DNA of 64,000 nt from Stigmatella aurantiaca DW4/3-1. GTDB lineage: Bacteria > Myxococcota > Myxococcia > Myxococcales > Myxococcaceae. The stretch lies in NCBI RefSeq assembly GCF_000165485.1, contig NC_014623.1:3119501-3183500 (forward strand). Reading direction: 5' to 3'. Under the pieces are notes generated by a model that worked only from the letters and a program-made list of their open reading frames with translations, was not told the DNA's origin and ran no database searches. Shown piece after piece: positions 25,082 to 49,557 of the stretch. A program made the translations under genes and the position numbers. How positions within the stretch are numbered: position 1 is the stretch's first letter; each line of letters starts with the position of its first letter.

Positions 25082-25173
25082 CGCGGGTTGCCCGCCTTGG
25101 CACGAGGCGCTGAGCCCTTCTCAATCTCTACAAACTATGGTGAGCCGCGGGCGACAGAAGCTGGAGGATTTAG

Positions 25174-25301
25174 AGGTGCGCGGTGGAAAGCGCGTCTGGC
25201 TGCCCTTCCTCCGCGCCAGCAGGTACATGCAGTCCTGCCAATCGCTGCTGGACTACTCGCTCACGCAGTTCTTCCATGAGGTGGAGCGGTACTGGCCCTG
25301 A
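25174..25301 (+). pseudogene. 3' remnant of a second immunity gene
   Basis: The encoded 41-42 residues (KRVWLPFLRASRYMQ, SLLDYSLTQFFHEVERYWP) closely match the last residues of the immunity protein ending at 21945, and the stop codon and part of the following hairpin are also shared. No upstream immunity domain is present in frame. This is a stranded 3' fragment left by duplication and recombination of a toxin/immunity cassette. Confidence 0.75.
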
Positions 25302-28300: not shown

Positions 28301-29173
28301 ACGAGTCAGTTCGTGCCGCCCTCTCTGGTGGAGGCGATCTGCGGGCGGGCGGATGGGCTCGGCCTGTCGCCGGCAGAGTTGGAGAAGGTCGTTTCGCCGG
28401 AGCTCTTCGTGCGTTGCCTCGAGGTCTCTTTCGGGAGTCCGCACCCTCTGTGGTGGCTGGGAATGCAGGGCAGTATTCACCCGGCCTGGCGTGCTGCGGC
28501 TGTTCACGTCCGCTCCCTGCCAACGCACACGGCGTTCGAGAGCGCCTGGCGCGCCGCGTACTCCGTGGGAAACGAGGGGCCGGAGGCTCACCTGCAGCAG
28601 TGGCAGTCTCTGTGCGCCGGGACGAAACCAGAGGATCTGGAGTCGCTCTTCGAGGTGCTCATGGGCCTGACGGCAACCAGCAACGAGGATCTCCATGAGC
28701 ATTGGTCGGCGTTGTGGCACCGAGGGTCCCCGGAGCAGCAGGCCACCTGGAGTGAGCGACTCGCCGAAAAGGTGGAGGAACTGTGTCGATCCAGGAGCCT
28801 GCCGGAACTCTTTGAGGACAAATCTCTTTTCAGCATGGTGCTGTCTTGGGTCCAGCCCGACAATTCCTTTCTTGTATCGATGGTCAGAATTCAGAAATCC
28901 GTCGAAGGCTTCATCCAACTCGTCACGGAGTTCTATTCGTCTCCTGAAACAACGCCCCGCCTGATCTGGACTCACGACCTCGTACTGAATCGCCTGAAGC
29001 AGGTTGGCTCCGAAAATGACCTCCAGAAGCAGGTCAGCTCAGCCCGCCACGCCGCATTCAATCGACAGAGGAACTTGTTGCGCGTGGAGCGCGAGATCGA
29101 CGGGGAGGAGTGGACTTACCTTCACCGCGCGGGGGGACGGGCCTCGGATGAACCGAAAGGTTCGTCGGAATAG
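25394..29173 (+). CDS. STAND-type NTPase with Cap4/DUF4297-like nuclease domain, candidate anti-phage protein
   Basis: A 1259-aa protein of Avs-like architecture. Residues about 10-115 resemble the Cap4/DUF4297 nuclease domain: YTYQYEADVWFFLL at the start, Glu41-Asp42, and the strand VEIQSK with Gln57-x-Lys59, followed by the helix/strand pair ending SALVVAGG. A P-loop GPSRCGKT lies at 273-280 with a Walker B-like RLFIIEG near 320 and sensor strand CLLIVTAS. A winged-helix-like region follows (about 500-560, LDDLERRGWIRRDG), then about 650 residues of helical repeats that would serve as the sensor. In Avs systems the repeats recognise a phage protein and activate the nuclease. Codon use is less GC-rich than in the replication genes. 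Target and activity are inferred. Confidence 0.7.
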   Translation: MSIPITSTSAYTYQYEADVWFFLLHKEEPALALVNEPRGGEDAEATFPAKSWKVEIQSKSERGDLDLPLLLEWLWKFPDREASNSLLERLLSNPQSSALVVAGGRCTDSIRRLVSDGTNTVGERERGLERAEANEFLQKVLDVTGLPAGTELEKKRLAHRSALLLNINDVFRLTRRIHILEGVTRERIQAECQRLLVLYHVPASQADHVFRRMVDYVREKVPDRDDVAPGLRKILSESSGLRVFKEEAEHIERPEERTLLDRLRDKRVLLLTGPSRCGKTFLAKWLAQAQQNQGFEVRRGEPQEASRFLLLAGEYDRLFIIEGAFEQAAKSGTVHQTWEAVEQVIRELPEHCLLIVTASKESLRDLLDADGIPTPMEGFPWVDLTVRDPALAVRIWQQHADLAGLSEVDRERYSEHLRALAPDFLVQPGQLWHLARNFPKGETRLDALDSVARVNAIALATEVRPVLPMARLVRALGISTTAMRPIHLDDLAFLMTAREDRPGLDKSSVGGLVSGESAPPFPVYSPPPRLPDPYSDLLDDLERRGWIRRDGDLLLFAHPDYEEAARILLARLPEGQRRELWSMLERATAGLGVNAAPTATRGLARLFEKYTSEDDRQRLLRIGLDALHSIFPAVSDEALLFLLVQHSRLDKSDQKMVWSWLANGGRSDALVSFHGGQAWFSPQTSWDELFRDHLHAGDTLSPTELNTPEKVWRALQGSTTLAVVEHGLRFPEVFIRAKAAKRYMSLASQESEKAWRAILDDHPLVLAAAFKGAIRSWPSYSPELRQFFLEGLTRAISVPTGAAALSGKMWGFDSECEWGSAEELGERWRLWGALLPTFLDAAPPLRWTLREDTLYGLFYGARKYLSQEIQRAICWAWLRWVKRGLRDTLPEGDTLAVADFLLKVVPTDSTERASLLPELLQHEDTGFTVINVRAFIAHWDNLLPAERDAVLTLVTGARRDRQWIRAVALTSQFVPPSLVEAICGRADGLGLSPAELEKVVSPELFVRCLEVSFGSPHPLWWLGMQGSIHPAWRAAAVHVRSLPTHTAFESAWRAAYSVGNEGPEAHLQQWQSLCAGTKPEDLESLFEVLMGLTATSNEDLHEHWSALWHRGSPEQQATWSERLAEKVEELCRSRSLPELFEDKSLFSMVLSWVQPDNSFLVSMVRIQKSVEGFIQLVTEFYSSPETTPRLIWTHDLVLNRLKQVGSENDLQKQVSSARHAAFNRQRNLLRVEREIDGEEWTYLHRAGGRASDEPKGSSE

Positions 29174-29866: not shown

Positions 29867-30499
29867 CAAGTAGCTCCCCGAATGAAGCCCTGCGCGAACC
29901 CGTTCTCGGCATTTCTCTGAGAGGACTCAAACTCTCTGAGGGCCGAAAACCGAGTGATATCCAGCGTTTTCAAAGAGGAGGCTGGGCGAGCCCTTCAATC
30001 GGGGTCCGAATGAATGTCCGCAAACTACACGGTGGGTGACCTCCCGTCCATGCTCCTGATCCTCGCGGCGCCCCGCTTCACAAGGAGTGCGTGGCGGCGG
30101 TGGGCGTGGGCTCGCGGGCGACGCGCAGAGGTGGGTGAAAGTCGCATGCTTCGAGGCGCGCGCCCTGGGATGCGCGAGGACATTGGCCTGGATCTCCCGT
30201 GGTCAATCGCGGCCCGCCCGGCAGCGGTCCACGGCCTGCGAGGGCAGGCCTTCGTAGGCGGTGCCGAGCCAATCCTCGCGCAGCAGCAGGCTGGTACGCC
30301 CCGCTGCCGCCCCCGGTGCTCCACCTCTCCATTCGCCGCTACAGGCGCTCGATGGCCGGTCCCCTACGCGTCGCGCTCACTCGCCTTGCCGCACTGTCGA
30401 ACGTGTCCTTGACGCCCGCATGACTCGGCGCCCGAATCTTGGGTAGGCACAGGGGAGACCTCGGTACTTGTCTCCCCTGTTGGCCCTACCGGAGCTCCA

Positions 30500-31390
30500 T
30501 CAAGAGCGGTGCTTTCCCAGGGGGTCCCGGATGCTCTCCATCATCTCCCTCATGGCGCGCATGCCGCCGGGGTCCCGGATGCTCTCCATCATCTCCTTCG
30601 CGGCGCGCATCCCTCCCGGATCCCGGATGCTCTCCATCATCTCCTTCGCGGCGCGCATGCCGCCGGGGTCCCGGATGCTCTCCATCATCTCCTTCGCGGC
30701 GCGCATGCCGCCGGGGTCCCGGATGCTCTCCATCATCTCCTTCGCGGCGCGCATGCCGCCGGGGTCCCGGATGCTCTCCATCATCTCCTTCGCGGCGCGC
30801 ATGCCGCCGGGGTCCCGGATGCTCTCCATCATCTCCTTCGCGGCGCGCATGCCGCCGGGGTCCCGGATGCTCTCCATCATCTCCTTCGCGGCGCGCATCC
30901 CTCCCGGATCCCGGATGCTCTCCATCATCTCCTTCATGGCCCGCATGCCACCTGGGTCCTGGAAGCGCTCCATCAGCTCCCTCGTGGCTCGCAGGCCGCC
31001 CGGGTCCCGGAAGCTCTCCGTCAACTCCCTCTCGGCGCGGATGGCCTCCGAAAGCCAGGTCACCCCGGCCTCCGGACTGATGGGCGCTTCCGACATCAAC
31101 GTGGGCGCCGCCGCTGAAGGTTCCTGACCTGCGGTGCCTGCGGTTTCCAACTTCTCGCTGGCCGCGGCTCCCAGGGACGGCTGCTGTCCCTCAACGTCCA
31201 CAGCCTCTGGCTTCCGGGCGACGTAGGCGAGTGGTACTTCGCCACGGCGATGAGTAGCAGCTCCTGCTCCAGGTGCAGCGTCTGCTGCCTCCAGGTTGAG
31301 CTTCGCTGTCGTGAAACGCTCGCCCGTTCGCTTCATACGAGCACGCACGCGGGCCTTGAACTTCTTCTCGTCAGTCATCGCAGACTCCAT
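30500..31390 (-). CDS. 16-residue tandem repeat protein
   Basis: A 296-aa protein. Residues about 6-35 (FKARVRARMKRTGERFTTAKLNL) resemble the short RVRxRM/TGExxxTA helical motif found in small bacterial proteins. A low-complexity Ala/Glu/Pro linker follows. From about residue 118 the protein is a tandem array of a 16-residue unit, consensus AAKEMMESIRDPGGMR. It has seven near-identical copies flanked by diverged copies (AMKE, ATRE, AERE, and AMRE at the C-terminus). Each unit would form a helix capped by a DPGG turn, giving a rod or solenoid. The low divergence between central copies implies recent expansion. Function unknown. Confidence 0.75.
   Translation of the reverse strand: MESAMTDEKKFKARVRARMKRTGERFTTAKLNLEAADAAPGAGAATHRRGEVPLAYVARKPEAVDVEGQQPSLGAAASEKLETAGTAGQEPSAAAPTLMSEAPISPEAGVTWLSEAIRAERELTESFRDPGGLRATRELMERFQDPGGMRAMKEMMESIRDPGGMRAAKEMMESIRDPGGMRAAKEMMESIRDPGGMRAAKEMMESIRDPGGMRAAKEMMESIRDPGGMRAAKEMMESIRDPGGMRAAKEMMESIRDPGGMRAAKEMMESIRDPGGMRAMREMMESIRDPLGKHRS
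30516..31035 (-). repeat. 48-bp coding tandem repeat array
   Basis: A 48-bp unit repeated about eleven times inside the gene above, the central seven almost identical and the edges diverged. The unit is a multiple of three, so the reading frame is kept and all strands stay open. It is not CRISPR-like: there are no unique spacers. Confidence 0.9.
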
Positions 31391-31746
31391 GCCAACGCGG
31401 TCTCATCCCCCACCTGAGCCTGTTGGCTAGGAATCGCGACAACCGCCCGAGGTCTGGTGGCCCCTTTACCTCGCTCTCAGGTCCCGTGGGGGGAGACCAG
31501 TGCGGGTCAGGCGGTAGGCGACCGCCCGAAGCGAACGTAGTGCGGACGATGGAGGGACGCAACAATCCTCCTCGGGTGGTGTCGAGCCACCTGCGCCAGG
31601 CTGCCAGCGGCCCAGCGCAGTTGTTGCTGCGGTGGCTGCCTCGGGCGTATGTCCACCACGTTCTCCGCTGACGCCTACCTCCGTTGGGTGATTGCCTCGC
31701 CCGCGCGCCCGACGCCTACTGCTGTCGGAAGAGGCCGTCCATCCGG
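31391..31746. other. intergenic region leading into dispersed repeat copy 1
   Basis: 356 bp with no supported gene. The last 95 bp belong to the dispersed repeat and carry the start region of the small paralogous gene. Confidence 0.4.
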
Positions 31747-31977
31747 ATGAGGCTGACGCAGGATGTCGAGCAGGATGCCGACGGCCGGCGGGAGCTGACG
31801 GTGGAGGTCTTCGTCCACGAGCGGCGGGGCGGCGTCGCTGAGCTCCAGCCTGCGGGCGCTGAGTGGCGCGTGCGATGGCTGCGTGGGACGGCGGACCTCA
31901 ACCGCCAGGGCAGCGGCACGGCCATGGTGCGGGTGACGGCGCCGGGGCTGTACCGCGTGCGGAGCGTCGCGAGTGCC
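31651..31977 (+). repeat. dispersed ~300-bp repeat, copy 1
   Basis: It includes about 95 bp upstream (TTGGGTGATTGCC, ACGCCTACTGCTG) and the first 77 codons of the small paralogous gene. It recurs at 36086-36413 and 38724-39030 in the same orientation. Confidence 0.8.
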
Positions 31978-32223
31978 TTGCGTGCCAGCTCTGCCCCGCG
32001 TCCACGGCCGCCGCGGGTTGCATGGGGCCAGCCGAGCCTGGCTGCCGGGGCCTCGCTCGGTCTGGTACTGCCGCCGCTACGTCCACCGGATGAGGCACCC
32101 TGGTGTGGAGTGGGGGCAGGGCCCGCGCCCGAACTTGGCTTCCAGGCGAGGCCCGTGAGCGTTCCGAGGATGAATAAATCTCAGCGGCTCTTGGTCAGAT
32201 GGAGAGCTGGCAAGCAGGCGTAG
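31747..32223 (+). CDS. small repeat-borne protein, copy 1 (long form)
   Basis: A 158-aa frame whose first 77 residues form a conserved unit (MRLTQDVEQDADGRRELTV, GGVAELQPAGAEWRVRWLRG, ADLNRQGSGTAMVRV). The unit is shared with copies near 36181 and 38794. The pattern of short strands suggests a small beta domain. After SVAS the three copies diverge completely, so the C-terminal 80 Pro/Arg-rich residues may be fortuitous. No family recognised. The copies lie between defence-like cassettes. Confidence 0.5.
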   Translation: MRLTQDVEQDADGRRELTVEVFVHERRGGVAELQPAGAEWRVRWLRGTADLNRQGSGTAMVRVTAPGLYRVRSVASALRASSAPRPRPPRVAWGQPSLAAGASLGLVLPPLRPPDEAPWCGVGAGPAPELGFQARPVSVPRMNKSQRLLVRWRAGKQA

Positions 32224-32355
32224 TGACGCAGCCCTTCCTGGACTTGGAGCTAGTCCCGGGGCTCCGGCAGCGCTTGTGAGCGAGTCGTGCGACGCTTCCA
32301 GGGGCTTGTTCCCAGAGATGGTCGCGCCGCTCAAACGAACTGGTCGGGGGAGTTC

Positions 32356-33891
32356 ATGCTTACCGTTGCCGTACGCAAGGGGGGCGGGCAGATCCAGGTG
32401 GTGGATGCGCTAAGCCTCAAGGGACAACCCGAGGGCGCGGCGTTCTGTCCGAGCGAGGACTGCGGTCAACCCCTGGAGCCGGTCTCCGCATTCACGCGCG
32501 TCGGCAGCATCCCGGTACGCGCCTTCTTCCGGCACCAGCGAGGAACTGCCAAGCAGCGCCCCTGTTGGGGCGCGAAGGGTGAGGGAGGTCTGCACTTTGC
32601 CGCGAAGCTCCACCTCCGCACGCAGCTCCAGGAGCTGTGCGAGAAGGGTGGGGCGCTCGTCGTGGAGCAGCCGTGCCTGCGATGCGCGGCAGGCCTATCG
32701 CACGAGGCCGTGCTCACCGAACCGAGCGATGCCATCCGCATTGAGCACTGGCTGGACCCTCGACGTACCCTGAAGCCGGATGTGGTCCTACTGCGTGCCG
32801 GCGTTCCGCTCCTGTCGTTCGAAGTCCGGGCTGCTCACCCTTGCTCACCGAGGAAGATTGGTGCCCTCACGTTGGCTGGGGCGCAGATGGTGGAGGTGGA
32901 TGCCTGGGCGCTGCTGGGTACGGAGACCGCGCCAACGTGGCGCTTCTCCTCGCCCCTACCGTTGAAGCAGGCGGTACTACCTGTGAGCCGGCGGCTTTGT
33001 GAGGGCTGCCAGGCGGCGCAGGACGATGAAGCTGCCTGCGAGAGGCAGGCTGAGGAGCGGAGGCAGCGCGCCCGCGAAGCGGAAGAACAGCTTCGGGCGC
33101 AGCATGCCCGCGAATGGAACGAGCAGCGTGCTCGCGAGGCCGAGGCTCAGCGCGCTCGTGAGGCCGATGCTCAGCGCGCTCGTGAGGCCGCGGCTCAGCG
33201 CGTTCGGAAACAGGAGGAGGTTCACGACCTGTCTGCGCGGAACGCCGTGACGAGTTCAAGGTCCGCCGGGAGCGTGAGGATGATCGCCCCACGGCCGCCC
33301 TCGCGTCCTGTGAGAATCTCCCCCACGGTTGAGACTCTTGCCCACTGCATCGTCGACGTGTGTCGGCCCGACGGGGTACGAGATGAAGTCGAGCTTGTCC
33401 TCGAACGTGAGACGGGCGCGTACCTGCGGGCGCAGTTGGTGGAATGCGACGCTCCAAAGCTGCGGGGAGGGCAACTGGGGGTTCGGTACGAGCGCCAACT
33501 TCTTGGTGAATGGGCTGGGCGCACTACGAAGGAGCATGACCTGCTCCTCAAAAAGGCGCGGGCTGCGGCCCGCGCTGCGTACGGGGCCGTGCGGGACTCA
33601 GGATGCGTCGTAGACACTTATGGTGGCTTTCGGCTTGGGGTCTCCAACGTGAGGCTGTGGCCGGATCCGAATTACTGGTGGGAGCCGCAGTCACAGCGTT
33701 GGGTTGGCGTGCAGTTGCGCGAGCTTCTCGCACGTGATTTCAAGATTTCGGAGAGCGCAGTCGAATCAAGGCTGCCCTCGGAGCATTTCCGTCGAGTGCT
33801 GGTCCGCCTCAGCATGCGCAAGAAGGACCTCGTCGCCTATGAAGCGCTCGGCACTGCTAAATTCGCAGAATGGCTGGGCGAAAAGGCGTAG
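32356..33891 (+). CDS. CoiA-like nuclease-fold protein with coiled coil
   Basis: A 511-aa protein; ATG 32356 has GGGGGAG close upstream (a GTG at 32287 is the alternative). The N-terminal region has a zinc-type pair (FCPSEDCGQPL), FFRHQRG and HLRTQLQEL, then the nuclease-like core LKPDVVLLRAGVPLLSFEVR, as in CoiA-type proteins with a PD-(D/E)XK fold. The lysine of the ExK position appears as Arg. A charged coiled coil with repeats of 'QRAREAxA' (about 240-305) follows, and then a C-terminal domain of about 180 residues that I do not recognise. It may be a DNA-processing defence protein. Confidence 0.5.
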   Translation: MLTVAVRKGGGQIQVVDALSLKGQPEGAAFCPSEDCGQPLEPVSAFTRVGSIPVRAFFRHQRGTAKQRPCWGAKGEGGLHFAAKLHLRTQLQELCEKGGALVVEQPCLRCAAGLSHEAVLTEPSDAIRIEHWLDPRRTLKPDVVLLRAGVPLLSFEVRAAHPCSPRKIGALTLAGAQMVEVDAWALLGTETAPTWRFSSPLPLKQAVLPVSRRLCEGCQAAQDDEAACERQAEERRQRAREAEEQLRAQHAREWNEQRAREAEAQRAREADAQRAREAAAQRVRKQEEVHDLSARNAVTSSRSAGSVRMIAPRPPSRPVRISPTVETLAHCIVDVCRPDGVRDEVELVLERETGAYLRAQLVECDAPKLRGGQLGVRYERQLLGEWAGRTTKEHDLLLKKARAAARAAYGAVRDSGCVVDTYGGFRLGVSNVRLWPDPNYWWEPQSQRWVGVQLRELLARDFKISESAVESRLPSEHFRRVLVRLSMRKKDLVAYEALGTAKFAEWLGEKA

Positions 33892-34165
33892 CCGAGTGGA
33901 TGTGTCCTGTCGTTGCAGCTTGTCACTCCCTTCGGCATGGGGCATGGCTTGTTGGGCAGCTCGGCTGTTGCCTCGGAATTCTGCCTCCGTCCCCGCTTGC
34001 GACGGGACTTCTTTGTTCCTCCGTGTCGCGCTCACTGGTTCTTGATGCAACGACAGCACTCTGGGGAAGACACCGACGTTCACTTCGGTTTCCTCGCCTT
34101 AGCCCGCTCCTCCGACGCCGCTATGCTGTGAGTTTATGGGCTCGGCCAGGAGACCCTATGTCAGG

Positions 34166-35896
34166 TCAACACTGTGCATGTGTTGATGCTTCCTTGAGGT
34201 GTGGAAGGAAAACAGAGATGGTTACAGGAGTGTTTGCGACGATTGCGCATGATAGCGCTTGCTGGAATGCGGGTATTCCTGCCGCATCTTTGAGTGCTCG
34301 TTGCAGTAATGCACGCGACACGTCGACGTCCCCTTGCTCCCGTGCGCGATTGGCGAGCGTTCCGACAATAGCCAACTCAAGCCCCAGCGGAAGTTGGAGT
34401 GCAGATGGCTTGAATCTCTTTTCGTCCCATTTCTCGAACGCGGCGAGCAAATCCTTGAGTGTCCATGATAGTGAATCCCCGTAGCCGGCAAGAACAAAAG
34501 GAGCCATCAGTTCAATCGAACACTCGTCTGTGTCGCGCGCGTACTTTGTTAGGGCTTGGTCGGTGCCGGCGACCCTTTGGGCCGGAGTAATGAAGGTGTG
34601 CCATAAATAGCAAATGGCAAGTAGCACCCGTCTTTGCGGTAGCGTGGCCTGGGGCATGAGCTTTAGCGCGTGCGAGACCAAGCTTCTTAGATCCGTAAAA
34701 CGGCCGGTGGACTGATTTAGTTGGTCAGTCATGTGGCTAAGAACGCCAGATAAGTAGCTCACCGCGTTCTTGCCGGTCAGTGCCTCTGATTTATGGATCC
34801 AGTATTGTGGAGCCGCTTCGATCTGGAAGGTGCCGGGTAGGTCTTTATACCAAGCAAACGTCTCCTGCTTCAGTACCGGCTGAGAGTAGATGAACGTTCG
34901 AGTTACGTGCTGGGTTAGCCTGAATAGGCCGGCATAGGTGAGGTAGGGCTCATGTTCCCAGACGATCACTTCCGCCGAAGCTAGTTGCGGTACGCTCAGG
35001 TGTTTTCGAAGCGGCTCAAGATTGTGTACATAGCTAGAGCGAAGCTTGTATGCGTTCTTCAGTGCTTGTATGAGTTCGGACTGGCGAAGTGGGCGCTCCC
35101 GGTTCATGGCGTCGGCGACAAAGAACACGGGCTTGATGTGGCTAGTGACGAAATCGACAAACCTCTTGGAGAGTTTGAGGTGCTTTTCTTTCGTCAGAAT
35201 GGCTCGAATGCGTCCTGCTCGATCCTGATCGACGTCTGCCAGTTCCTTGTCGATCTGTTTGCGTATGGTCTCGTCGTAGTCGATCCAGGTGGGACTGTAG
35301 GTGTCGAATTGCTGCGAAAGCGACTCGAGGCAATAAACTAGAATCGAGTACGCTAGATCAAGGTTGTGGCCCAATGCCTCAAGTGAGCTTCTCATCCCCT
35401 CGAGCGCGCTGATTACGGCGCTGTATGTCTCTCGTGGAAGATCGATTGTTTTCTGTACGAGGGAGGCGAATGCCTCAAGTTCCCCTGGGCGGGCATTTCT
35501 TGCAGGCGTGAAGAATCCGGGCAAGAAATGACCTGGAAGAATTTTGTCCGATGCTCCTCGTGGAGACGAGCGGCAGTGGAGTTCGACGTTTGTTCGATCT
35601 CCGGCAAACCATGCGCCCAAACCGAAAATGCAAAGAGCTTCAAATTGAGAGAGGATTTCCGCGTCGCCAACTCTCCCGATCATCCCTGCCTGAAGAGGGC
35701 CTTCGGGTTTCTCAATTTGATTCGTGTAGCTTACGACGTACGTGGTGATGTCTCCAAACGAGTAGGTCGGCTCAAGCTTGGCCACGCACGTTTCAATTGG
35801 TGCGAACCAGGACAGATTCGAGAAGAATACGCCTTTCCCTTCCGACCTGAATCGCTCTTCCCGAGAGAAAAACTTGCCTGAGATTATCTGGAGCAT
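34166..35896 (-). CDS. HEPN-like protein of ApeA-like architecture, candidate defence gene
   Basis: A 576-aa protein from ATG 35896 (MLQIISGKFF). An in-frame ATG at 36028 would add 44 residues, but a TATAAT element lies 7-12 bp before 35896 and the longer leader is unlike the rest. The N-terminal 250 residues form a mostly beta domain (ISGKFFSREERF, WFAPIETCVAKLEP). A helical domain follows with LRSSYVH, the Arg-x4-His motif of HEPN RNases (Arg286, His291), and then more helices. ApeA-type anti-phage proteins share a beta N-terminus and a HEPN C-terminus. The gene is markedly AT-richer than the phage modules, a sign of transfer. Confidence 0.5.
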   Translation of the reverse strand: MLQIISGKFFSREERFRSEGKGVFFSNLSWFAPIETCVAKLEPTYSFGDITTYVVSYTNQIEKPEGPLQAGMIGRVGDAEILSQFEALCIFGLGAWFAGDRTNVELHCRSSPRGASDKILPGHFLPGFFTPARNARPGELEAFASLVQKTIDLPRETYSAVISALEGMRSSLEALGHNLDLAYSILVYCLESLSQQFDTYSPTWIDYDETIRKQIDKELADVDQDRAGRIRAILTKEKHLKLSKRFVDFVTSHIKPVFFVADAMNRERPLRQSELIQALKNAYKLRSSYVHNLEPLRKHLSVPQLASAEVIVWEHEPYLTYAGLFRLTQHVTRTFIYSQPVLKQETFAWYKDLPGTFQIEAAPQYWIHKSEALTGKNAVSYLSGVLSHMTDQLNQSTGRFTDLRSLVSHALKLMPQATLPQRRVLLAICYLWHTFITPAQRVAGTDQALTKYARDTDECSIELMAPFVLAGYGDSLSWTLKDLLAAFEKWDEKRFKPSALQLPLGLELAIVGTLANRAREQGDVDVSRALLQRALKDAAGIPAFQQALSCAIVANTPVTISVFLPHLKEASTHAQC

Positions 35897-36085
35897 GCAG
35901 GTGCCATTATAGCTGCAACTCCTGAATCCTGGATAGTTGGTTCGCGAGAACGAGAGGGGACGTTCCTCCGGGCTAGGTTCTGACTTGGCCACCGTGTACC
36001 GAAGAGTCCAAGTCGACCCCTGGTACACAGCGCCACCCTCTCCATGTGATCCGCCTGCGGGGCTGGGGGCTGTACCTGCCCCCAG

Positions 36086-36413
36086 CTTGCATCCACCATG
36101 CTCGCCGCTGTCGCCTACCCCCCTTGGGTGATTGCCCCCGGACGCGCTCCTGACGCCTATTGCTGACGGAGGAGCACTACATGCGGATGTGGCCGACGCG
36201 GGATGTGGAGCAGAATGCCGACGGCGGGCGTGAGCTGACGGTGGAGGCCTTCGTCCACGCGCAGCGCGGCGTCGCTGAGCTCCAGCCAGCGAGCGCTGAG
36301 TGGTGCGTGCGGTGGCTACGTGGGTCGGCGGACCTCAACCGCCAGGGCAGCGGCACGGCCGCGGTGCGGGTGACGGCCCGGGGCTGAATTGCATGCGAAG
36401 TGTCGCGAGTGCC
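36086..36413 (+). repeat. dispersed ~300-bp repeat, copy 2
   Basis: Same block as copies 1 and 3, including the upstream TTGGGTGATTGCC segment. It lies between the HEPN-like gene and the Mrr-like gene. Confidence 0.8.
36181..36387 (+). pseudogene. small repeat-borne protein, copy 2 (frameshifted)
   Basis: 68 codons from ATG 36181, with GGAGGAG 6 bp upstream. Relative to copies 1 and 3, one base is missing in the GCGCCGGGG stretch, so translation ends early at a TGA although DNA similarity continues through GTCGCGAGTGCC. The product lacks the last segment of the conserved unit. Confidence 0.6.
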
Positions 36414-36731
36414 AGAGGTGCCCGGGATGCCTCCGTCAAGGCGACCGTGGCGGATAGCGACCTCTGTGCTACCGTTCTCGGGGCGAATGCGCAGGTTCCG
36501 CGCATGATGCGGCTCTTGTCTAGCCCCTGGAATAGAGCTTCGGAAGTACCTCAGCCCGGGCCTCATGCGCGGCCCAACGGCGCGATACTGCTGACTCGCT
36601 AGCAGACCAGGCCGAGGCGGGCCGCCGAACATGGGCCACACAGTGGCGGGCCGGGTGCCCCCCAGGCCGTTAGCGACGAGAAATTGGCCCAGGTAGAGTG
36701 CGGCTGTTCGCACTTGGAGTACAATCCTTTC
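36388..36731. other. intergenic region without supported gene
   Basis: 344 bp. The first 26 bp are the end of the dispersed repeat; nothing else recognisable is seen. Confidence 0.4.
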
Positions 36732-37631
36732 ATGGTGCCCAACATCCGACTGCTCGCAATAGAATCAGGCGATCTCCTGAAATACGAAACGGTCCTCAAG
36801 GAGATTGACCGTTATGGGATGGCAATCCTCCGGATTGCCGTCGAGCGCTTTCCCGTAGATTCAATTTCGTCGCAGCGGGCGCAGCGCATCTTCGATTGGC
36901 TATGCTCGATTGGCCGGACGGAGATGGATCCGAACGCTCGCGCTGAAGCGGTGCGTGCTTTTCTGCACCAGCTTGCGCACAATAAGCCTGAGCTTTGCGC
37001 CCAACTGGATGAGGCCCTTCGCCGCAGTGGCTTTCCCATGCCGCGGGTGGCTGAGCCGAGTCGTGCCGAAGACGCTGCTCGTACTGAGGACGCGAGAAGA
37101 AGGACCCGGCAGGAGTTCGAGCGGACACGCGAAGCTCTGCTCTTGCGTTTTGATGAGCTGGCGGTGTCGGCTCAACCGCAACGGCGTGGCTACGATCTGC
37201 AGGACCTCCTCAATGGATTACTTTCGCTCTATGAAGTCCCGTCCGCTCGGAGCTTTACTCGAAACGAGGGAGGCGAGCAGATCGACGGGGCGTTCCGGCA
37301 TGGTGCTTGGTACTACTTAGTGGAGTGTCGCTGGAGGCGAGCTCCCGCTGATACTCGGGACCTCGATGGCCTTGTTGGGCAGGTCAGTCGTTCCGGAAAG
37401 CAGTCGATGGGGCTCTTCCTTTCAATGAATGGCTGGTCTGAGAACGTGGTTCCGCTTCTGAAGCAGAATGCGTCAAAATCCATCTTGCTTGCCGACGGAG
37501 GTGATCTTCGAGCGGTCCTAACAGGCGCCCTATCATTTCAAGAGCTGCTGGATGCGAAGGAGCGAAGCCTTAGTCTTGAAGGGGAGCCTTTCTACTCTTC
37601 GAGTCAAATCGTACGCGACCGCAGCAGCTAG
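36732..37631 (+). CDS. Mrr-like restriction endonuclease-fold protein
   Basis: A 299-aa protein; ATG 36732 is preferred over an upstream TTG. The first 90 residues are helical, a charged coiled coil covers about 110-150, and the C-terminal domain (about 150-285) is a restriction-endonuclease fold. It opens with GYDLQDLLNGLLSLYE, then EQIDGAF (Asp185), YYLVECRW (Glu198-x-Arg200), VGQVSRSGKQSMGLFLSM and ILLADGGDL. These are the Mrr-catalytic landmarks, except that the ExK lysine is Arg. It would bind or cut DNA, perhaps modified DNA. It is the first of two adjacent nuclease-type genes. Confidence 0.65.
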   Translation: MVPNIRLLAIESGDLLKYETVLKEIDRYGMAILRIAVERFPVDSISSQRAQRIFDWLCSIGRTEMDPNARAEAVRAFLHQLAHNKPELCAQLDEALRRSGFPMPRVAEPSRAEDAARTEDARRRTRQEFERTREALLLRFDELAVSAQPQRRGYDLQDLLNGLLSLYEVPSARSFTRNEGGEQIDGAFRHGAWYYLVECRWRRAPADTRDLDGLVGQVSRSGKQSMGLFLSMNGWSENVVPLLKQNASKSILLADGGDLRAVLTGALSFQELLDAKERSLSLEGEPFYSSSQIVRDRSS

Positions 37632-37758
37632 CGCGTGTTCGCTTCGCGTCTTTACGTTGCTGGAATTCCTGGCATGTTGGTGTGTTTGGATAGTGAAGGG
37701 ACGCCTGGGGCAAATGGCTCCGCACGGGCGTTGATCTGGTGGGCTGAGGGAACGCCAA

Positions 37759-38607
37759 ATGGAACGGCTTGATTTTCTGAATTGCATTTGGTGTGAGAGA
37801 CCGTATCCGCCAGCAGTGCAGAGTCGCGAGCATGTCCTGCCGGAGTTTTTGGGGGGCAACAAGACTCTGCCGGGTGGCGCAGTTTGCAAGGAGTGTAACA
37901 ACAATCTCAACACGTGGCTCGATCAGCCGCTCAAGATTCAGTTCCAATCACTTATTACGCACTTCGACGTGCGGAGTGGCAAGAGAGACTCGGCAGCGTC
38001 TGCTCGTGTCCAGGTGGCTACGAACCAAGGCCCAATCCCTGCAACCATGCTGCCAGGTGGGCAACTGACTCGTCCAGAGCATAGCCGTCAAGCACGCGTG
38101 CGGTATGGGGAAGAGGTGCTCGAAGAGTGGATTGTCCGAGCTGACGTCGTCGAAGACTTCATCGACGAACGCCGCCGGCACATGAATCTCGTCGACGTCG
38201 AGTGTATCCCCCTGGTTCTTGGTGCCGCTTTTGTGAACCTGCGAGGGAAGGCAGAGGTTTTACTCCGGTCTACTGTCCGCGCTGGTGTGAACCTCGTTGC
38301 CCTCAAGGCGACTGAGTTGCTTTCCTTACCAGAGTTCCAGGGGGTGAGGTGCTATGTGCTGAGGAGTGATTGTGCTGTGCCTGAGTTTCGTGCCTCGGCA
38401 TCCGCGCTGCTTCTGAAAGGCGGATTTGAAATCAAGGAGTGTCGCCTGGAACACGCGATCTTCTTCTATGCGGAGCATGGCGGGTCTGCGCTATTTGAGT
38501 TGCGAATGTTTGGTGACATCTTCTGCAGAGTCCAAATTGCCGAGGAGTGGAGTGGTCCAACAACAGAATTGAAGGAGCAGTTCCTCGGCGGACATCAGCC
38601 ACCGTGA
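37759..38607 (+). CDS. HNH endonuclease
   Basis: A 282-aa protein with an N-terminal HNH zinc finger: CIWCERP, then SREHVLPEFLGG (the His of the first strand) and CKECNNNLN closing the finger and giving the second metal-site residues. The remaining about 200 residues form an alpha/beta domain that may bind nucleic acid or sense a ligand. It lies 127 bp after the Mrr-like gene in the same direction. It is probably a cargo defence nuclease; substrate unknown. Confidence 0.7.
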   Translation: MERLDFLNCIWCERPYPPAVQSREHVLPEFLGGNKTLPGGAVCKECNNNLNTWLDQPLKIQFQSLITHFDVRSGKRDSAASARVQVATNQGPIPATMLPGGQLTRPEHSRQARVRYGEEVLEEWIVRADVVEDFIDERRRHMNLVDVECIPLVLGAAFVNLRGKAEVLLRSTVRAGVNLVALKATELLSLPEFQGVRCYVLRSDCAVPEFRASASALLLKGGFEIKECRLEHAIFFYAEHGGSALFELRMFGDIFCRVQIAEEWSGPTTELKEQFLGGHQPP

Positions 38608-38706
38608 TGTCATGGGTTTCAAGTTCTGCCTCCCGTTCTAGTCGGATGTGACTACAGGTAGGGCGGATGGGGGCCGCCTATGCACAAACGGCGGTCCTGA
38701 AGTCCG

Positions 38707-38720
38707 AGCCCAAAAGGGCT
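38707..38720 (+). terminator. short hairpin after HNH gene
   Basis: AGCCC AAAA GGGCT, a 5-bp stem 100 bp after the HNH stop. Weak. Confidence 0.25.
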
Positions 38721-38723
38721 ACG

Positions 38724-39030
38724 GCTTAGGCGTCACCCTTGGGGATTGTCCCGGCCGAACTCCCGACACCTACTGCTGCCGGAGTAGCACTGCATGCGGA
38801 TGCGGCTGACGCAGGATGTGGAGCAGGAGGCTGACGGCCGGCGGGAGCTGACGGTGGAGGTCTTCGTCCATGCGCGGCGGGGCGGCGTCGCTGAGATCCA
38901 GCCCGCGGGCGCTGAGTGGCGCGTGCGGTGGTTGCGTGGGACGGCGGACCTCAACCGCCAGGGCAGCGGCACGGCCATGGTGCGGGTGACGGTGCCGGGG
39001 CTGTACCGCGGGCGGAGCGTCGCGAGTGCC
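38724..39030 (+). repeat. dispersed ~300-bp repeat, copy 3
   Basis: Same block as copies 1 and 2, between the HNH gene and the orphan nuclease gene. Confidence 0.8.
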
Positions 39031-39150
39031 CGGCGCGGCCGGTCTGGTCCTCTTCCGCTGCCTGCTATGGCGTTGTCGGGCTTGCCGCGTCAGGTCGCCG
39101 CTGCCTCAGCTTGCGGCTGCATACTTCCCATGCTCCTTTGGGCCAACTAG
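38794..39150 (+). CDS. small repeat-borne protein, copy 3
   Basis: A 118-aa frame from ATG 38794, with GGAGTAG upstream. The first 78 residues match copy 1 almost exactly (RLTQDVEQ, ELTVEVFVHARRGGVAEIQ, DLNRQGSGTAMVRVTVPG). The last 40 residues are unrelated to copy 1, so the shared unit ends at SVAS. Near-identity between copies 1 and 3 indicates recent duplication or ongoing recombination. Confidence 0.5.
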   Translation: MRMRLTQDVEQEADGRRELTVEVFVHARRGGVAEIQPAGAEWRVRWLRGTADLNRQGSGTAMVRVTVPGLYRGRSVASARRGRSGPLPLPAMALSGLPRQVAAASACGCILPMLLWAN

Positions 39151-39225: not shown

Positions 39226-40941
39226 ATGGAGTCGAGAGTGCGTTTCGCCCCCACCCCCATGGACCCGCCCTGGCCGTACTCCGCCTCAAAAGTGCTCTCC
39301 CGCCCCAAGAGGGAGCTGAGCACGGACGACGTCATTAAACGGCTCCGACGATTTAGCCGGAACGGGCTGCTCAAAATGGGAGCTGAAATCCTCTGGTACG
39401 CGTGGAACCACTCAGACGTGCTGGAGAATGGGGCTCCGGGAAGCATTGGCAACTTCATCACCCGGACGTATTCAGAGCGCCTCATCACTCTCGCGGGGGC
39501 GTTCGCGAGTTCGCACAACCGTGCCGAGCCTGCGGAGGTGGACTTCAGGCTCCTCTGCTGGGAACTCCACCAGTGTTCCGATGGACCCGTACTCGGCCCA
39601 GATGTTCTGCAGGAGGTCTCCTCTCGCCTCGTGCAGCTTCCTAAAGATTCGCCCTTGCGGAAACTCGATACGGCCTTCACTCACCGCCTCATGATCGAGG
39701 CGTTCAAGGCCCGTATTGTCGCCGCGCAGTTCGAAGGACGAATCTGGGACAAGGCCAGCCTCATTCGCCCGCTCCTCATTGCGCGGGAACTTGCATCCTT
39801 GGGGCGAAAGGCCGGAGGAGATGCCTACGACCGTGCGGAGCGCCAGTTCTTCCTGACCTCCTTGGAGGGTTTCTTTCGGGCTGCGTGGGCAATCTATACG
39901 AAGGCCTCCGACGGGGTGCGCATCGAGGCGGCAAGTCCGCGAGGGCCGGTCATTGTCCATGATCACGGGCGCTTCCGGGGGGATTCGTGGCAGTTCGATT
40001 CAGAGTCCCAGGAGCACGTAGGCCTGACAGAGGACGACGTGCGTGCAGTAACAAGCCGGCTCTCCATGCCGCTCAGCAAGTACGCCGAACGTCGGGCTGC
40101 ACTCCGCCAGATGGACCCCGCGGTGCGGAAGTACGACGGCCTCGCCGATGTATTGGTGACGCGCCCCCTTGTTGACTTGGAGCTTGAGAGGCTTGGCGAG
40201 GACTTTCTTCTCCCGTCGCCGTGGCGGTTCATTTCGGGGATGGGCACCTTCGTCCTCCACGAGTTCGTTTCGTTCTTGCAGGCCCATAGAGCCACGGCGC
40301 TGGGGGGGCAGGACGCATACGCTCTTCGAGGCGAAGCTTTCGGAAATTACCTGCGAGATCTTCTACGTGCGCGCCCTGGTGTTCACGATTGCGATGCCCC
40401 TGAGATGGGCGGACTCACGAGCCGTAAGCCGGATTTTCTATGGGTAGGTGAGGAGTATGGAGTGATGGTGGAGGCGAAGGTCTTCCTCCGCCCGAATGAG
40501 GATCGGCTTCTGGTGGACGCAACCTCTGCCGTGGAAACCTGGCGGCGCGCTGCCGAGACCATCTCGCAGGCGGTTGGCCTCCTGCGAAATAGCCGTGCGG
40601 TGCTCGAGCGGCACATCCGCTTGCCGGAGAAGTGGGTGCTCATCGTGGTGAGCAACGAGGACTTGATTGAATCCACCACGGGCTTCAAGGGGGTTGCTAG
40701 GGCGGGAAACCTGCTTGATGGCACGGGTTTGGATGCACTCGCCCTGCTGAGCTCGAGCGAGTTCGAGGACTGGGTGGTGCACGGCAGTCCAGATGAACTG
40801 GCACGCCAAGCGGTTCAGGCATGGTCGAATCTGAAGCCAGGTGATCTTGGCTATGACAGCCGGGTGTCCCGTCAGAGTAGCCAGCGAGAATCGGAACTTC
40901 CGCACATCGCTGAGGCATGGAGCAGCCTCATCCCTGCCTAG
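39226..40941 (+). CDS. orphan PD-(D/E)XK nuclease-domain protein
   Basis: A 571-aa protein that I cannot assign to a named family. Met12 is an alternative start. Residues about 30-370 are helical with no known motif (IKRLRRFSRNGLLKMGAEIL, YSERLITLAGAF). The C-terminal domain has a textbook nuclease core: RKPDFLWVGEEYGVMVEAKV, with Asp403 and Glu416-x-Lys418, preceded by the helix GEAFGNYLRDLL and followed by a QAVGLL helix and a WVLIVVSNED strand. The long helical part may sense a trigger. It stands alone between dispersed repeat copy 3 and a proteasome-fold gene, so it is a candidate single-gene defence system. Confidence 0.65.
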   Translation: MESRVRFAPTPMDPPWPYSASKVLSRPKRELSTDDVIKRLRRFSRNGLLKMGAEILWYAWNHSDVLENGAPGSIGNFITRTYSERLITLAGAFASSHNRAEPAEVDFRLLCWELHQCSDGPVLGPDVLQEVSSRLVQLPKDSPLRKLDTAFTHRLMIEAFKARIVAAQFEGRIWDKASLIRPLLIARELASLGRKAGGDAYDRAERQFFLTSLEGFFRAAWAIYTKASDGVRIEAASPRGPVIVHDHGRFRGDSWQFDSESQEHVGLTEDDVRAVTSRLSMPLSKYAERRAALRQMDPAVRKYDGLADVLVTRPLVDLELERLGEDFLLPSPWRFISGMGTFVLHEFVSFLQAHRATALGGQDAYALRGEAFGNYLRDLLRARPGVHDCDAPEMGGLTSRKPDFLWVGEEYGVMVEAKVFLRPNEDRLLVDATSAVETWRRAAETISQAVGLLRNSRAVLERHIRLPEKWVLIVVSNEDLIESTTGFKGVARAGNLLDGTGLDALALLSSSEFEDWVVHGSPDELARQAVQAWSNLKPGDLGYDSRVSRQSSQRESELPHIAEAWSSLIPA

Positions 40942-41778: not shown

Positions 41779-42190
41779 AGGCTACAATCTACCACGCCGC
41801 CGTGGCTGTCGAGCGGCAGTGACTGTAGCTGCGCTCCTGGCAAGCGAGGCGTGGGCGAGCATGCCCCTCCGCAGAGCCCATCTTCCCTCATGCGTACCGA
41901 TGTTCTGCCCATGCGGGTCGGGTTCGGTGACTTTGGGAGACCGTCCACCAGTGGTTGGTCGGCCTGTAGGCGGATGGGGCCTTGCTCGAGAGGACCTCTC
42001 CGGCGCTTCTTGAGTGGAACGGCCCCCAATCAGCGAAAACCGGGCGTCGCGGTAACCAACGGGGGCGCCGAGGGTGGAATAAGGGTCTAGTCAACTAGAC
42101 CTATTCGGTCGTGTTTAGCGGAGCAAAAGGGGACTTCTCGCCGAAGGAACTTGCCGCCTTGGGGTGGCCGTAGCTGTGCTGCGGCCCTTC
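41779..42190. other. divergent intergenic region with operator
   Basis: 412 bp between the proteasome-fold gene (-) and the RDD gene (+). No supported gene. It contains the best operator palindrome of the window at 42084-42101. Confidence 0.5.
42084..42101. promoter_or_regulatory. XRE-type operator candidate, site 4 (best palindrome)
   Basis: GGTCTAGTCAACTAGACC: perfect 8-bp arms around a CA centre, 90 bp before the RDD gene. It shares AGTCAACTAGACCTA with site 1, more than 31 kb away. Confidence 0.7.
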
Positions 42191-42796
42191 ATGTCCGACT
42201 TCCGCGAGGCCGTTGAATCGATTTCGGAAGCCCAGTGCTCCGAGCATCCAGGCTTCTCCGCCGCCATCGCCTGTGCTCGTTGCGGCACCTTCACCTGTGC
42301 CTTCTGCGCCTCGTCTGGGGCGGGCCTGTGCTTTCGCTGCCTTCATGCGGCTCCGGAGCTGGCGACGTGCTGGGCCCGGCTCGCGGCAAGTCTTGCTGAC
42401 GGCGCCGCGCTCCTGCTGCCCTCCCTGTTCCTGGGTGTCCTCCGGTGCCTAGCGCTACCGGGCGAGAATGCTATGCAGGCCCCAGCAATTTACATCCCAG
42501 CGGTCTTCGTGTTGCTCGTGCAGGCGAACCTGATTCGAGGAACCGGTGCGAGCTTCGGCAAGAGGCTCTTGGGCATCTGTGTCGTCCGAGGCGACGGCCG
42601 TCCGGCGGAGGTGTGGCGCATTGTCCTGCTGCGGAACGCCCTCCCGATGGCGCTGTGCGGTTACTGCGTCTGGTTCGGCCTTGTGGATGCACTCTTCCTC
42701 GTCGGAGAGGAGCGGCGATGCCTCCATGACTGGGTGGCTGGCACGCGCGTTGTGAAGGCCCTCGGGCGCGGCACTCGTTCGCTGGGTGGTGCCTGA
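42191..42796 (+). CDS. RDD family membrane protein with zinc-finger N-terminus
   Basis: A 201-aa protein starting at ATG 42191 (a GTG at 42164 is possible). The N-terminus has a B-box-like cysteine/histidine finger: CSEHPGFSAAIACARCGTF, then CAFC and CFRC. The rest is an RDD membrane domain: SLADGAALLLPSLFLG, a second span (AIYIPAVFVLLVQANLI), then the diagnostic GASFGKRLLGICVVRGDGRP, LLRNALPM, DALFLVGEERRCLHDWVAGTRVV. RDD proteins are small transporters or scaffold proteins of unknown substrate. An operator-like palindrome upstream suggests control by the XRE regulators. Confidence 0.8.
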   Translation: MSDFREAVESISEAQCSEHPGFSAAIACARCGTFTCAFCASSGAGLCFRCLHAAPELATCWARLAASLADGAALLLPSLFLGVLRCLALPGENAMQAPAIYIPAVFVLLVQANLIRGTGASFGKRLLGICVVRGDGRPAEVWRIVLLRNALPMALCGYCVWFGLVDALFLVGEERRCLHDWVAGTRVVKALGRGTRSLGGA

Positions 42797-42841
42797 CTGG
42801 CTGAAGCGGTGGTTTCGAAGTCCCTTCACCGAGAGGGGAGA

Positions 42842-44734
42842 ATGAAAGGCGATGACATGGAGGGAGTGGTGAAGTCCGGGCGCCCCCGGTGGTTGGCCGG
42901 GCTCGTGTGTACGGTGGTGGCGCTGGCGTTGGGGTGCGCCCGGCACACGTGGAAGCGGGACGACGTCATGACGTGGGCGGGTTGCTGCGAGGGCACTGAC
43001 GCGTGCCTTGCGCTGCTGCAGGAAACCCACGGCCCCGACACCGGGGAGAAGTGGCCGGCACCGGAGCAGTCGTGTGCCGCCTGGAAGTTGGGGCGCGCGG
43101 GGGAGGATGCTGTCCCCCGGCTTACTTCGCTGCTTGCGCACCCGGAGCGCCGCGTCCGCGGCGGTGCGGCACATGCTCTGGCGAACATGGGTGAGAAGGC
43201 CAAGAGCGCCTTGCCCGCGCTGCTTGACGCGTATGAGCGGGAGCCCCGTGGGATGGCTCTGCACGCGCTCTCCTCCCTCGATGACGAGCGAGCAACTCCA
43301 GCCATTCTGCGCCACCTCCTGGAGTCGCCCACGTCGACGCTGGAGCACCTCGGGCCGGCATTGGCTCCGGTGTTGGTGGGGGTGCTGGAGAGTCCTGAGT
43401 CGAGCTGGGAGGCGCTGGTGCTGGTGCGCCACGTGCTCGCCCGGCGCGGCTCCATGTACACGGAGACTTTCGTCCCGCGCCTGCGGACCCTCCTCGCGAG
43501 GGAGCTGGCGGAGCCCACTCTCCGGCGCCCACCCGGCATGTCCTGCCCGGCGGCCCCCGCGCCAAGCTGCGAGGCGGTTTTTGACGGGTGCACCCCGCGC
43601 GCGGCCTACGTGGCTTCGGTGTTGGCGGCCTACGGGCGCCAAGGGGAGAAGGCCGCGCCAGAGGTGCTGCAGGCGCTACAGCGGGGAGATGTGCGCCTCA
43701 CGCCCGTTGCGCTGCAGGCGCTGGTGGCCTTCGGGAGTCCCGCTGCGGTGCCGGGCGTCCTTGAGCAACTCGCCGCGCCTGAATGCCGCGCCCGGGCCCT
43801 CACGAGCCTCGCGTGGCTGGGGCCCGTGGCGCGGCCAGCCGCGACGGAGCCGCTGCTGCGCCTGCTGGCCACGGGGGCGGAGGGATGGGAGCGCGCGCGG
43901 GCAGCGGAGGCCCTTGGACGCGTCGGAGATTCAGCCGCTCTCGATGCGCTGCGCCAGGCGGTGGACGCGCCGCACAGCGAAGTCCAGGCCGCGGCGGTTG
44001 ATGCGCTGGGCAGCTACTCCTTCCAGGCGCATGCGGAGGAGCTGAAGCCGCTGCTGCAGCAGGTGGTGGCGGCACACGCCTCTCCGGTGGCGCGGATCCA
44101 CGCGAGGTTGGCCCTGGAATGGCGCTCCGACCAGGAGTTGCGGCCGGCGGACTCCATCGACTGTGCCCGCCTCATTCCAGGACGAAGCGGGGAATGGACG
44201 GTGTGCGAGGAGGGGCGCACCTCGGTCCAGTTGCACTGGGACAAGCCGAAGGCGCCTCCACAAGGGAGTCCCTGCGCAGCCGTGCCTGGGGGGGATTCCG
44301 CGTCCGTCCTCGAAGCCATGGGAGAGGCCTGTCTCGTCGGATGGGACGACGGGGAGTTTGGGGGCACGTTGGAAGTGCATGAGGCCGGGCGGGTGACTGT
44401 GCTGGAGGAGCCCCGGGCCAACCCCCTGCAAGTCGTGCGGATGCATGGCGCCCTCGTGGTGCTGGAGGGGCTGGCGCACCTGCTTGGCGGTGCAGGGCGT
44501 CTGATGCGTGTCGACACGTCCGAGGGGCGGTGGCGTGCCACGCCTTGGGTGACGCTCCCGGGGGCGCCGATGGCATACGCGCTGGACGACGCGGGAGACC
44601 TCGTGGTGGGGACGACGGACCAGCGACTCGACGCCGTCGCATGTGGCCCGGCTGGGGCCCTCGCCCCCGCCCACGTGGTGCGCATCACGGGGGACGGGCG
44701 CCTGGCCCCCGTTGAACCGAAGGGCCAACCCTGA
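42842..44734 (+). CDS. HEAT-repeat lipoprotein
   Basis: A 630-aa protein; ATG 42842 follows GAGGGGAG. The signal sequence ends VALALGC, a lipobox. The mature part begins with a cysteine-rich segment (CCEGTDACL). HEAT-type repeats cover about 75-460 (for example PRLTSLLAHPERRVRGGAAHAL, RARAAEALGRVGDSAALDAL), then a beta-rich C-terminal domain resembling a propeller fragment (EVHEAGRVTVLEEP, YALDDAGDLVVGTTD). It is a probable envelope scaffold for protein interactions. It starts 45 bp after the RDD gene and is likely in the same operon. Confidence 0.75.
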   Translation: MKGDDMEGVVKSGRPRWLAGLVCTVVALALGCARHTWKRDDVMTWAGCCEGTDACLALLQETHGPDTGEKWPAPEQSCAAWKLGRAGEDAVPRLTSLLAHPERRVRGGAAHALANMGEKAKSALPALLDAYEREPRGMALHALSSLDDERATPAILRHLLESPTSTLEHLGPALAPVLVGVLESPESSWEALVLVRHVLARRGSMYTETFVPRLRTLLARELAEPTLRRPPGMSCPAAPAPSCEAVFDGCTPRAAYVASVLAAYGRQGEKAAPEVLQALQRGDVRLTPVALQALVAFGSPAAVPGVLEQLAAPECRARALTSLAWLGPVARPAATEPLLRLLATGAEGWERARAAEALGRVGDSAALDALRQAVDAPHSEVQAAAVDALGSYSFQAHAEELKPLLQQVVAAHASPVARIHARLALEWRSDQELRPADSIDCARLIPGRSGEWTVCEEGRTSVQLHWDKPKAPPQGSPCAAVPGGDSASVLEAMGEACLVGWDDGEFGGTLEVHEAGRVTVLEEPRANPLQVVRMHGALVVLEGLAHLLGGAGRLMRVDTSEGRWRATPWVTLPGAPMAYALDDAGDLVVGTTDQRLDAVACGPAGALAPAHVVRITGDGRLAPVEPKGQP

Positions 44735-47551: not shown

Positions 47552-47591
47552 TGGTGCGTCTCTTGTATTGGCGAGGGGCACCCGCCCTTCG

Positions 47592-47631
47592 CGAAAGACA
47601 TACACGCTCTGGTTCGGCATTGAAGCAAGCC
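47592..47631 (-). promoter_or_regulatory. phage promoter-like motif, copy A
   Basis: Minus strand: CTTG, 15 nt, AGAGCGTGTATGTCTTTCGCG. Upstream of the small Cys-rich gene and the GGCT operon. Confidence 0.7.
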
Positions 47632-47710
47632 CTGTTTGAGGCGGCGCGAGGGGCGCGGGTTGGGCGGGCCCGGCATCCCTCCAGGGGAGTCCCCTGTCGC
47701 GAACGCAGGC

Positions 47711-47734
47711 GGGCGCCAGGGCCCTGTGGCGCCC
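47711..47734 (-). terminator. hairpin after amidoligase gene
   Basis: GGGCGCCA, loop of 8, TGGCGCCC: perfect 8-bp stem 13 bp past the amidoligase stop. A second small hairpin (47682-47696) follows. Confidence 0.65.
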
Positions 47735-47746
47735 GTGAAGGCCTCG

Positions 47747-48721
<975 letters not shown>

Positions 48722-48762
48722 GGGATTTGCCTCTCGCATTCGCGCGGGGCTGTGGCGCCCGT

Positions 48763-48802
48763 CGCGAAACACATACGCGCTCTTGTGTGCGAATGAAGCA
48801 AG
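48763..48802 (-). promoter_or_regulatory. phage promoter-like motif, copy B
   Basis: Minus strand: CTTG, 15 nt, AGAGCGCGTATGTGTTTCGCG, 42 bp before the amidoligase start. Confidence 0.7.
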
Positions 48803-48886
48803 TCCGCTTTGACGTCTGAATTGGTAAGATTTGTGTGTCTGGGATGGTCGCGAGAATTCGCGAGGTTGCGCGGCGGCCGTATGCAG

Positions 48887-48907
48887 GGCAGGCGCAGCAA
48901 GCCTGCC
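48887..48907 (-). terminator. hairpin downstream of small gene at 49098
   Basis: GGCAGGC, loop of 7, GCCTGCC: a perfect 7-bp stem about 190 bp past the stop. Confidence 0.4.
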
Positions 48908-49403: not shown

Positions 49404-49435
49404 CGTTGTCCTCGCATTTCGTTGGAGGGGGCGTT

Positions 49436-49545: not shown

Positions 49546-49557
49546 GGGGCGTCTGTC

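Follow-up and report, generated by a model that had tools for sequence, protein, structure and literature searches.

The stretch analysed here (the window) is 64,000 nucleotides long and comprises positions 3,119,501-3,183,500 of the 10.26-Mb single-contig genome of Stigmatella aurantiaca DW4/3-1 (GCF_000165485.1, NC_014623.1). An earlier account made from the letters alone, hereafter the sequence-only reading, had described in it three copies of a repeat of about 300 bp separating defence-like genes, and had proposed that the repeat was either a homology platform for the gain and loss of cassettes or a small mobile unit. The three blocks were confirmed (about 31651-31990, 36086-36413 and 38724-39042), all of them on one strand and with a common leader of about 90 bp, as was their placement between unrelated genes within a region of gene turnover. 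The blocks themselves proved to be ordinary gene relics, derived from a longer gene here called gene A, and tracing them revealed a transposon end of 88 bp, here called element E, which is repeated with a largely constant polarity and marks where accessory islands are joined in a family of predatory bacteria with large genomes.

The three blocks as relics of gene A

The pairwise identity of the blocks was 86-90% over 296 aligned columns (copies 1 and 3, 89.8%; copies 1 and 2, 87.3%; copies 2 and 3, 85.9%), with 2.6-4.4 kb between blocks. When the whole genome was searched at near identity with the 300-bp block, four matches were obtained, namely the three window copies and a 69-bp piece at 2,951,272. 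Therefore, the block is not found everywhere in the genome, and both chance and a genome-wide repeat were discarded as explanations. Copy 2 carries the 1-bp deletion described previously and an additional one of 3 bp.

Alignment of 36 copies from related genomes revealed that similarity continues past the end point given in the sequence-only reading, into a longer frame. Gene A has 273-275 codons and belongs to the Myxococcaceae, with intact frames at four places in three genomes (G082, G063 and twice in G085); another full-length copy, the fifth, contains one stop. These full-length copies have the conserved long C-termini that the sequence-only reading itself had named as evidence against its proposal, as a mark of ordinary paralogous genes. 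The supposedly self-contained unit of 77 codons is thus the front of gene A, broken inside a predicted domain. Neither did the claim of a single point at which all three copies lose their similarity hold, as copies 1 and 3 remain similar for about 30 bp past GTCGCGAGTGCC, and copy 2 goes on matching gene A in other frames at 36378-36506 and 36527-36622, so that pieces of codons 68-149 are found there in shifted frames. Over codons 1-83, the window copies align to gene A at about 90%.

The three blocks are decayed relics of this island gene, since their frames are broken: copies 1 and 3 at codon ~83, copy 2 by frameshift and copy 1 also by loss of its start. Silent and replacing codon changes in the truncated frames numbered 4 and 3 in copy 1 and 3 and 5 in copy 3, counts too few to settle the matter of selection. 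The break at gene position 349 (codon ~83) is common to copies 1 and 3, to G075 and G079 and to the 2.951-Mb piece of the own genome, and is followed by TCTGG(T/C)CC in four of these five copies and by AGCTCTGCC in copy 1. The foreign tails that continue copies 1 and 3 were also seen in two other genomes (G075 and G079). Moreover, copy 1 and the CoiA-like gene next to it recur in G075 as one block of 2268 aligned columns at 92% (window 31665-33929), showing that the block travels with a specific neighbour. G075 and G083 have their left flank in common (436 columns at 91%, with two upstream genes alike); gene A is unbroken in G083 save for one 1.7-kb insertion. In G075 there is a break at codon ~83, where 2.8 kb with the CoiA-like gene replaces 135 bases and gene A restarts at the right edge of an E copy.

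DNA searches detected 44 matches to gene A in 19 of the 96 family genomes, and protein searches detected it in 21 of them. Of the copies found in the DNA search, 23 are grouped in nine clusters (two copies or more in a span of 100 kb), and orientation is uniform inside each cluster. The best matches of the three window copies in other genomes were of 93.6, 92.2 and 87.6%. In a tree of 22 copies a single clade for the window three was not rejected by the approximately unbiased (AU) test (p 0.229), although the tree is weak; as regards a local duplication of the blocks, the trees gave AU p values of 0.09, 0.229 and 0.239, too weak to decide.

A structure model of the gene A product, built on seven sequences (mean pLDDT 80.5), places eight strands in the first 105 residues and helices after them. 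The front of the protein, as far as about residue 105, is predicted to be a beta-sandwich and its rear to be helical. The break at codon ~83 would cut the first of these predicted domains, with strands 82-92 and 95-105 and all beyond missing in copies 1 and 3. As to function, no family was matched over a cut-off and no Foldseek match was found at an E-value of 0.001 or less in PDB or viral models, and the best match in a second structural comparison was to Ig-like domains over residues 5-96, with a Z of 5.8 that falls short of what the tool regards as telling. Phage-like genes (a methyltransferase, a MazG-like protein and a weak tape-measure match) surround gene A in G063, where it also shares a few bases with an overlapping second gene. 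A phage origin by database was rejected, as there was no match to gene A in 50,697 phage records and none was confirmed among viral contigs. Among the literature titles searched none describes gene A or E, which is no proof of absence from print.

Three further observations concern gene A and its surroundings. At L155 (4390-5365), a 984-bp insertion in gene A has long near-perfect inverted ends and a 187-aa secreted-looking frame, with no transposase-like frame seen. The G082 island encodes an exonuclease VII large-subunit-like protein according to Pfam (L166, 283-1608), and by eye a similar protein lies between two gene A pieces in the G097 island (L156). At G000 3,059,579-3,060,245 (L168), a gene A piece stands directly before a piece of a HEAT gene, as a second decayed copy of the arrangement found to the right of the window's island.

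Element E at the joints of accessory islands

In several copies of gene A, element E lies about 55 bp past the gene, and it recurs in islands with unrelated flanks. In the own genome, nine of the ten matches at an E-value of 0.02 or less fall within 2.95-3.25 Mb and have the plus orientation, and the tenth is at 9.43 Mb on the minus strand. With a profile built from sequence only, E was detected at an E-value of 0.01 or less in at least 59 of the 96 family genomes, some of the matches being weak, and among the matches listed the richest genome had 47 copies.

E forms the right end of an IS3/IS481-like transposon of 1525 bp, of which five copies align leftward from E at 87-95% and have matching inverted ends; four of them are full-length and one is ended by its contig end. 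The transposase carries a Pfam rve_3 domain. It matched NCBIfam IS3 profiles at E-values of 1.7e-24 and 1.1e-28 (86.7 and 100.6 bits, below the 160-bit cut-off) and IS481 profiles at 56.9 and 68 bits (below the 224-bit cut-off). No match to the transposon was found in phage and plasmid collections, and the 27 viral contigs in which 15 bases of E occur exactly hold no copy of the element above 8.4 bits.

Other natures for E were considered. Miniature inverted-repeat transposable elements (MITEs) are short, are bounded by inverted repeats on either side and have empty sites that lack them. E differs from them in its ends, as it matches the right end of the transposon only, and nearly all the left-end matches were the transposon or E itself. 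A foldable attachment site was ruled out by the absence of a hairpin, as eight folds were all less stable than their shuffles (z 0.5 to 2.4), and of any consensus pair in 37 copies. A promoter or terminator was also rejected, because the neighbouring genes point both ways (upstream, 24 in the same direction and 21 in the opposite one).

The flanks of E were compared in a collection drawn from regions fetched for holding gene A or E, which is not a random sample. The 95 full copies had 43 upstream flank families, counted on flanks of at least 100 bases, versus 85 downstream families, and upstream families of 16, 14, 9 (gene A) and 7 members were followed by 16, 13, 9 and 7 downstream families, respectively. 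Among half copies, 17 consisted of the right half only and 3 of the left half only. Thus, E follows a one-ended pattern, with a constant right end and a variable left end, both in the family counts and in the half copies. Of 1858 distinct alignment ends, 43 fell within 12 bases of the right edge of E and 12 within the same distance of the left edge, compared to 10.1 expected for both together, the right edge being a preferred break point. Three locus pairs have 965-1146 bases directly at the right edge of E in one member that are absent from the other. In 16 of the 95 copies a short sequence of the CCCCTGTGTCAGGGAAGTTGTCGC type, which resembles the end of the gene A insertion in G083, abuts the left edge of E, and part of the left-boundary pattern may therefore stem from nested insertions. 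The only confident E of the window is itself a joint between DNA shared with two different genomes (Table 1).

Neighbouring E pairs had the same direction in 96 of 101 cases, and this one-way orientation is kept over up to 150 kb, unlike that of the genes beside E, which point either way. The direction of replication was assigned by taking dnaA as the origin and assuming the terminus opposite to it, with rounded lengths for seven genomes; one of 125 rows, which came from the small second contig in G089, was excluded. Among the remaining 124 copies, from 15 genomes, 109 run with replication. When copies were grouped in 60-kb clusters, 38 ran with replication and 7 against it, with 2 ties (p 3e-6, a value that overstates the bias because the clusters are partly orthologous and not independent).

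Neighbouring genes in the window

The coordinates of the blocks, their tails, E and the neighbouring genes are collected in Table 1. The defence-like labels given to the cargo by the sequence-only reading were upheld only for the HNH gene, the single one among five neighbour genes to pass in Pfam. For its CoiA-, HEPN-, Mrr- and nuclease-like labels, neither Pfam nor NCBIfam gave a match over a cut-off, and PADLOC gave none below an E-value of 0.01. The RDD and HEAT genes beside the window blocks were absent from the six other genomes of the genus at an E-value of 1e-20 or less.

Table 1. Gene A relics, element E and neighbouring genes in the window (strand relative to the forward strand).
Feature	Position	Strand	Remarks
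Element E (88 bp), sole confident copy in the window	30368..30456	+	283 bp upstream common to G096; DNA from the right edge common to G061
Gene with 16-residue repeats (RDPGGMRAAKEMMESI type; 48-bp DNA repeat)	30500..31390	-	Relatives near E/gene A in G061, G080 and G082
Copy 1	31651..31989	+	Leader and gene A codons 1-~83; start ATG changed to ATC; relic
Foreign tail of copy 1 (remainder of open frame)	31990..32223	+	Found in G075 too
CoiA-like gene (name from the sequence-only reading; no Pfam match)	32287..33891	+	Travels with copy 1 in the block common to G075
620-aa gene, labelled HEPN-like, label not confirmed	34166..36028	-	
Copy 2	36086..36622	+	Leader and frameshifted gene A relic, codons 1-~149
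315-aa gene, labelled Mrr-like, label not confirmed by Pfam	36684..37631	+	
HNH_5 endonuclease gene	37759..38607	+	Pfam over cut-off, E-value 8e-10
Copy 3	38724..39042	+	Leader and gene A codons 1-~83; relic
Foreign tail of copy 3	39043..39150	+	About 90 bp common to G079
571-aa gene 3' of copy 3	39226..40941	+	No family over a cut-off
RDD-family and HEAT-repeat genes	42164..44734	+	Relatives downstream of gene A pieces in G075 (RDD only), G085, G086 and G097

Other repeats were also detected in the window. A 48-bp tandem repeat at 30425-31096, in the 296-codon minus-strand gene, has its counterparts in the island relatives of G061, G080 and G082. At 47566-51786 a repeat of 42-67 bp occurs five times in the same orientation, every copy lying close to where a minus-strand frame starts, and by eye these copies look like shared promoters. 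A 145-bp direct repeat, 83% alike, is found at 21801-21945, in the 3' end of the gene at 20611-21945, and at 25157-25301, outside called genes. To the left of the island, a 1259-aa protein (25394-29173) has an nSTAND3 NTPase domain over the Pfam cut-off and is a possible defence gene.

Origin of the pattern and known systems

The likeliest source of the pattern described above appears to be units with the transposon end E in common, which would move in a direction set by replication, and we consider it probable that the gene A blocks are decayed cargo of such E-ended units, inserted with a fixed direction relative to the fork. Gene A and its adjacent genes would have been brought in as the variable part of the units, either through the right end acting alone or through mutual recognition between transposon ends, and later insertions and deletions would have broken the carried genes, leaving three front ends as litter between newer cargo. 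The window copies are assigned to these units by the behaviour of gene A in relatives, so this assignment is putative. Of the small mobile unit proposed originally, what survives is the spread of gene A with a defined neighbour, element E; the 300-bp block is not the unit, being the broken front of the gene.

Several results weigh against this explanation. The window has only one confident E, 1.2 kb to the left of copy 1, and copies 1-3 have no confident E flanking them; 3.1% of 391 random stretches score at least as well as an E-like stretch after the CoiA-like gene. None of 2549 alignments showed a complete unit, between two right edges of E, that was common to loci, and left ends were found in the 1525-bp transposon only. 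The three filled and unfilled locus pairs fit insertion as well as deletion. The search for E-free empty sites for the 95 copies gave 30 candidate alignments in 1.34 Mb compared, none of them clean on inspection. To these is added the overstated p value of the replication bias.

The best of the alternatives is plain decay, in which a prophage or island gene A was scattered by ordinary insertion-sequence activity and deletion, and E is a common insertion-sequence end whose cargo was not specially moved. The phage-like genes around gene A in G063 agree with it, as do the insertion elements that break gene A at differing points in G083, G051 and G061, those of G083 and G051 being taken as insertion sequences by eye. 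However, it leaves unexplained why E joins 43 different upstream sequences at one left boundary and why it keeps one orientation over such long distances, and we regard it as possible but doubtful.

The homology platform, in which homologous recombination between blocks kept as direct repeats exchanges, excises or duplicates the cassettes, seems less probable still, and we hold it to be unlikely. The direct orientation in the nine gene A clusters and the spacing of the window blocks are in its favour, and so is the junction at codon ~83, which is common to copies 1 and 3, G075, G079 and the own-genome piece without these being grouped in the tree (AU p 0.09 against one clade), as if block and tail had been re-paired. 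In contrast, the window copies are no more alike among themselves than their best matches elsewhere, so that exchange among them is unsupported, and copies 1 and 3 are truncated relics. The break points sit at E's right edge instead of being spread over the repeat, and in a sample of one genome per species no case of a cassette lost by recombination between two blocks was found in any strain pair. That the relics serve as recombination homology would be a secondary and unproven role.

Integrons have attC sites that fold as single strands and an IntI integrase. An integron-like array, in which E is the recombination site and an integrase adds cargo as gene plus E, would fit the long arrays of one oriented short element among unrelated genes and the association of E with its left-hand DNA while new DNA adjoins its right edge, but it is very improbable given the lack of a hairpin in E, the absence of any integrase over the TIGR02249 cut-off in eight genomes (with matches below it in all eight and likewise in all 14 controls), the free direction of adjacent genes, the absence of blocks bounded by two right edges of E common to loci, and the identity of E as a transposon end with a matching inverted repeat.

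Returning to the movement of E-ended units, a broader and more tentative proposal is that Myxococcaceae islands grow by a fork-coupled transposon system in which the single 88-bp right end E is enough to carry variable left DNA, so that unrelated units by the dozen, including gene A and possible defence genes, would stack head to tail with replication polarity and without integrase or hairpin sites. If E-ended units do move with the replication fork, this would provide myxobacteria with a concrete route to gain and shuffle accessory, possibly defence, genes, and E would be a handle for locating such cargo.

Chromosomal integrons resemble the E islands in their arrays of oriented short sites amid unrelated genes, and differ in that E is no foldable attC-like site, no integrase passed the cut-off in the eight genomes and gene orientation is free. 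The protein of the E-ended transposon matches both the IS3 and the IS481 profile groups of NCBIfam, always below the curated cut-offs. A likeness is also offered by IS91 and IS801, whose one-ended transposition involves like E a constant right end with variable left DNA and right-end-only fragments near accessory genes (PMC3189936). The IS91-like elements lack proper inverted repeats (PMC3189936), whereas the E-ended transposon has matching inverted ends and an rve-type transposase (Pfam rve_3). Finally, transposons whose orientation follows replication are known, and they include Tn7, through TnsE and the sliding clamp, and IS200/IS605 (PMC5371812). No TnsE or HUH transposase was identified here, no search aimed at either having been made. 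As in these elements, the direction of E correlates with that of the fork, although the bias of E comes from solo ends in islands and not from experimental insertions.

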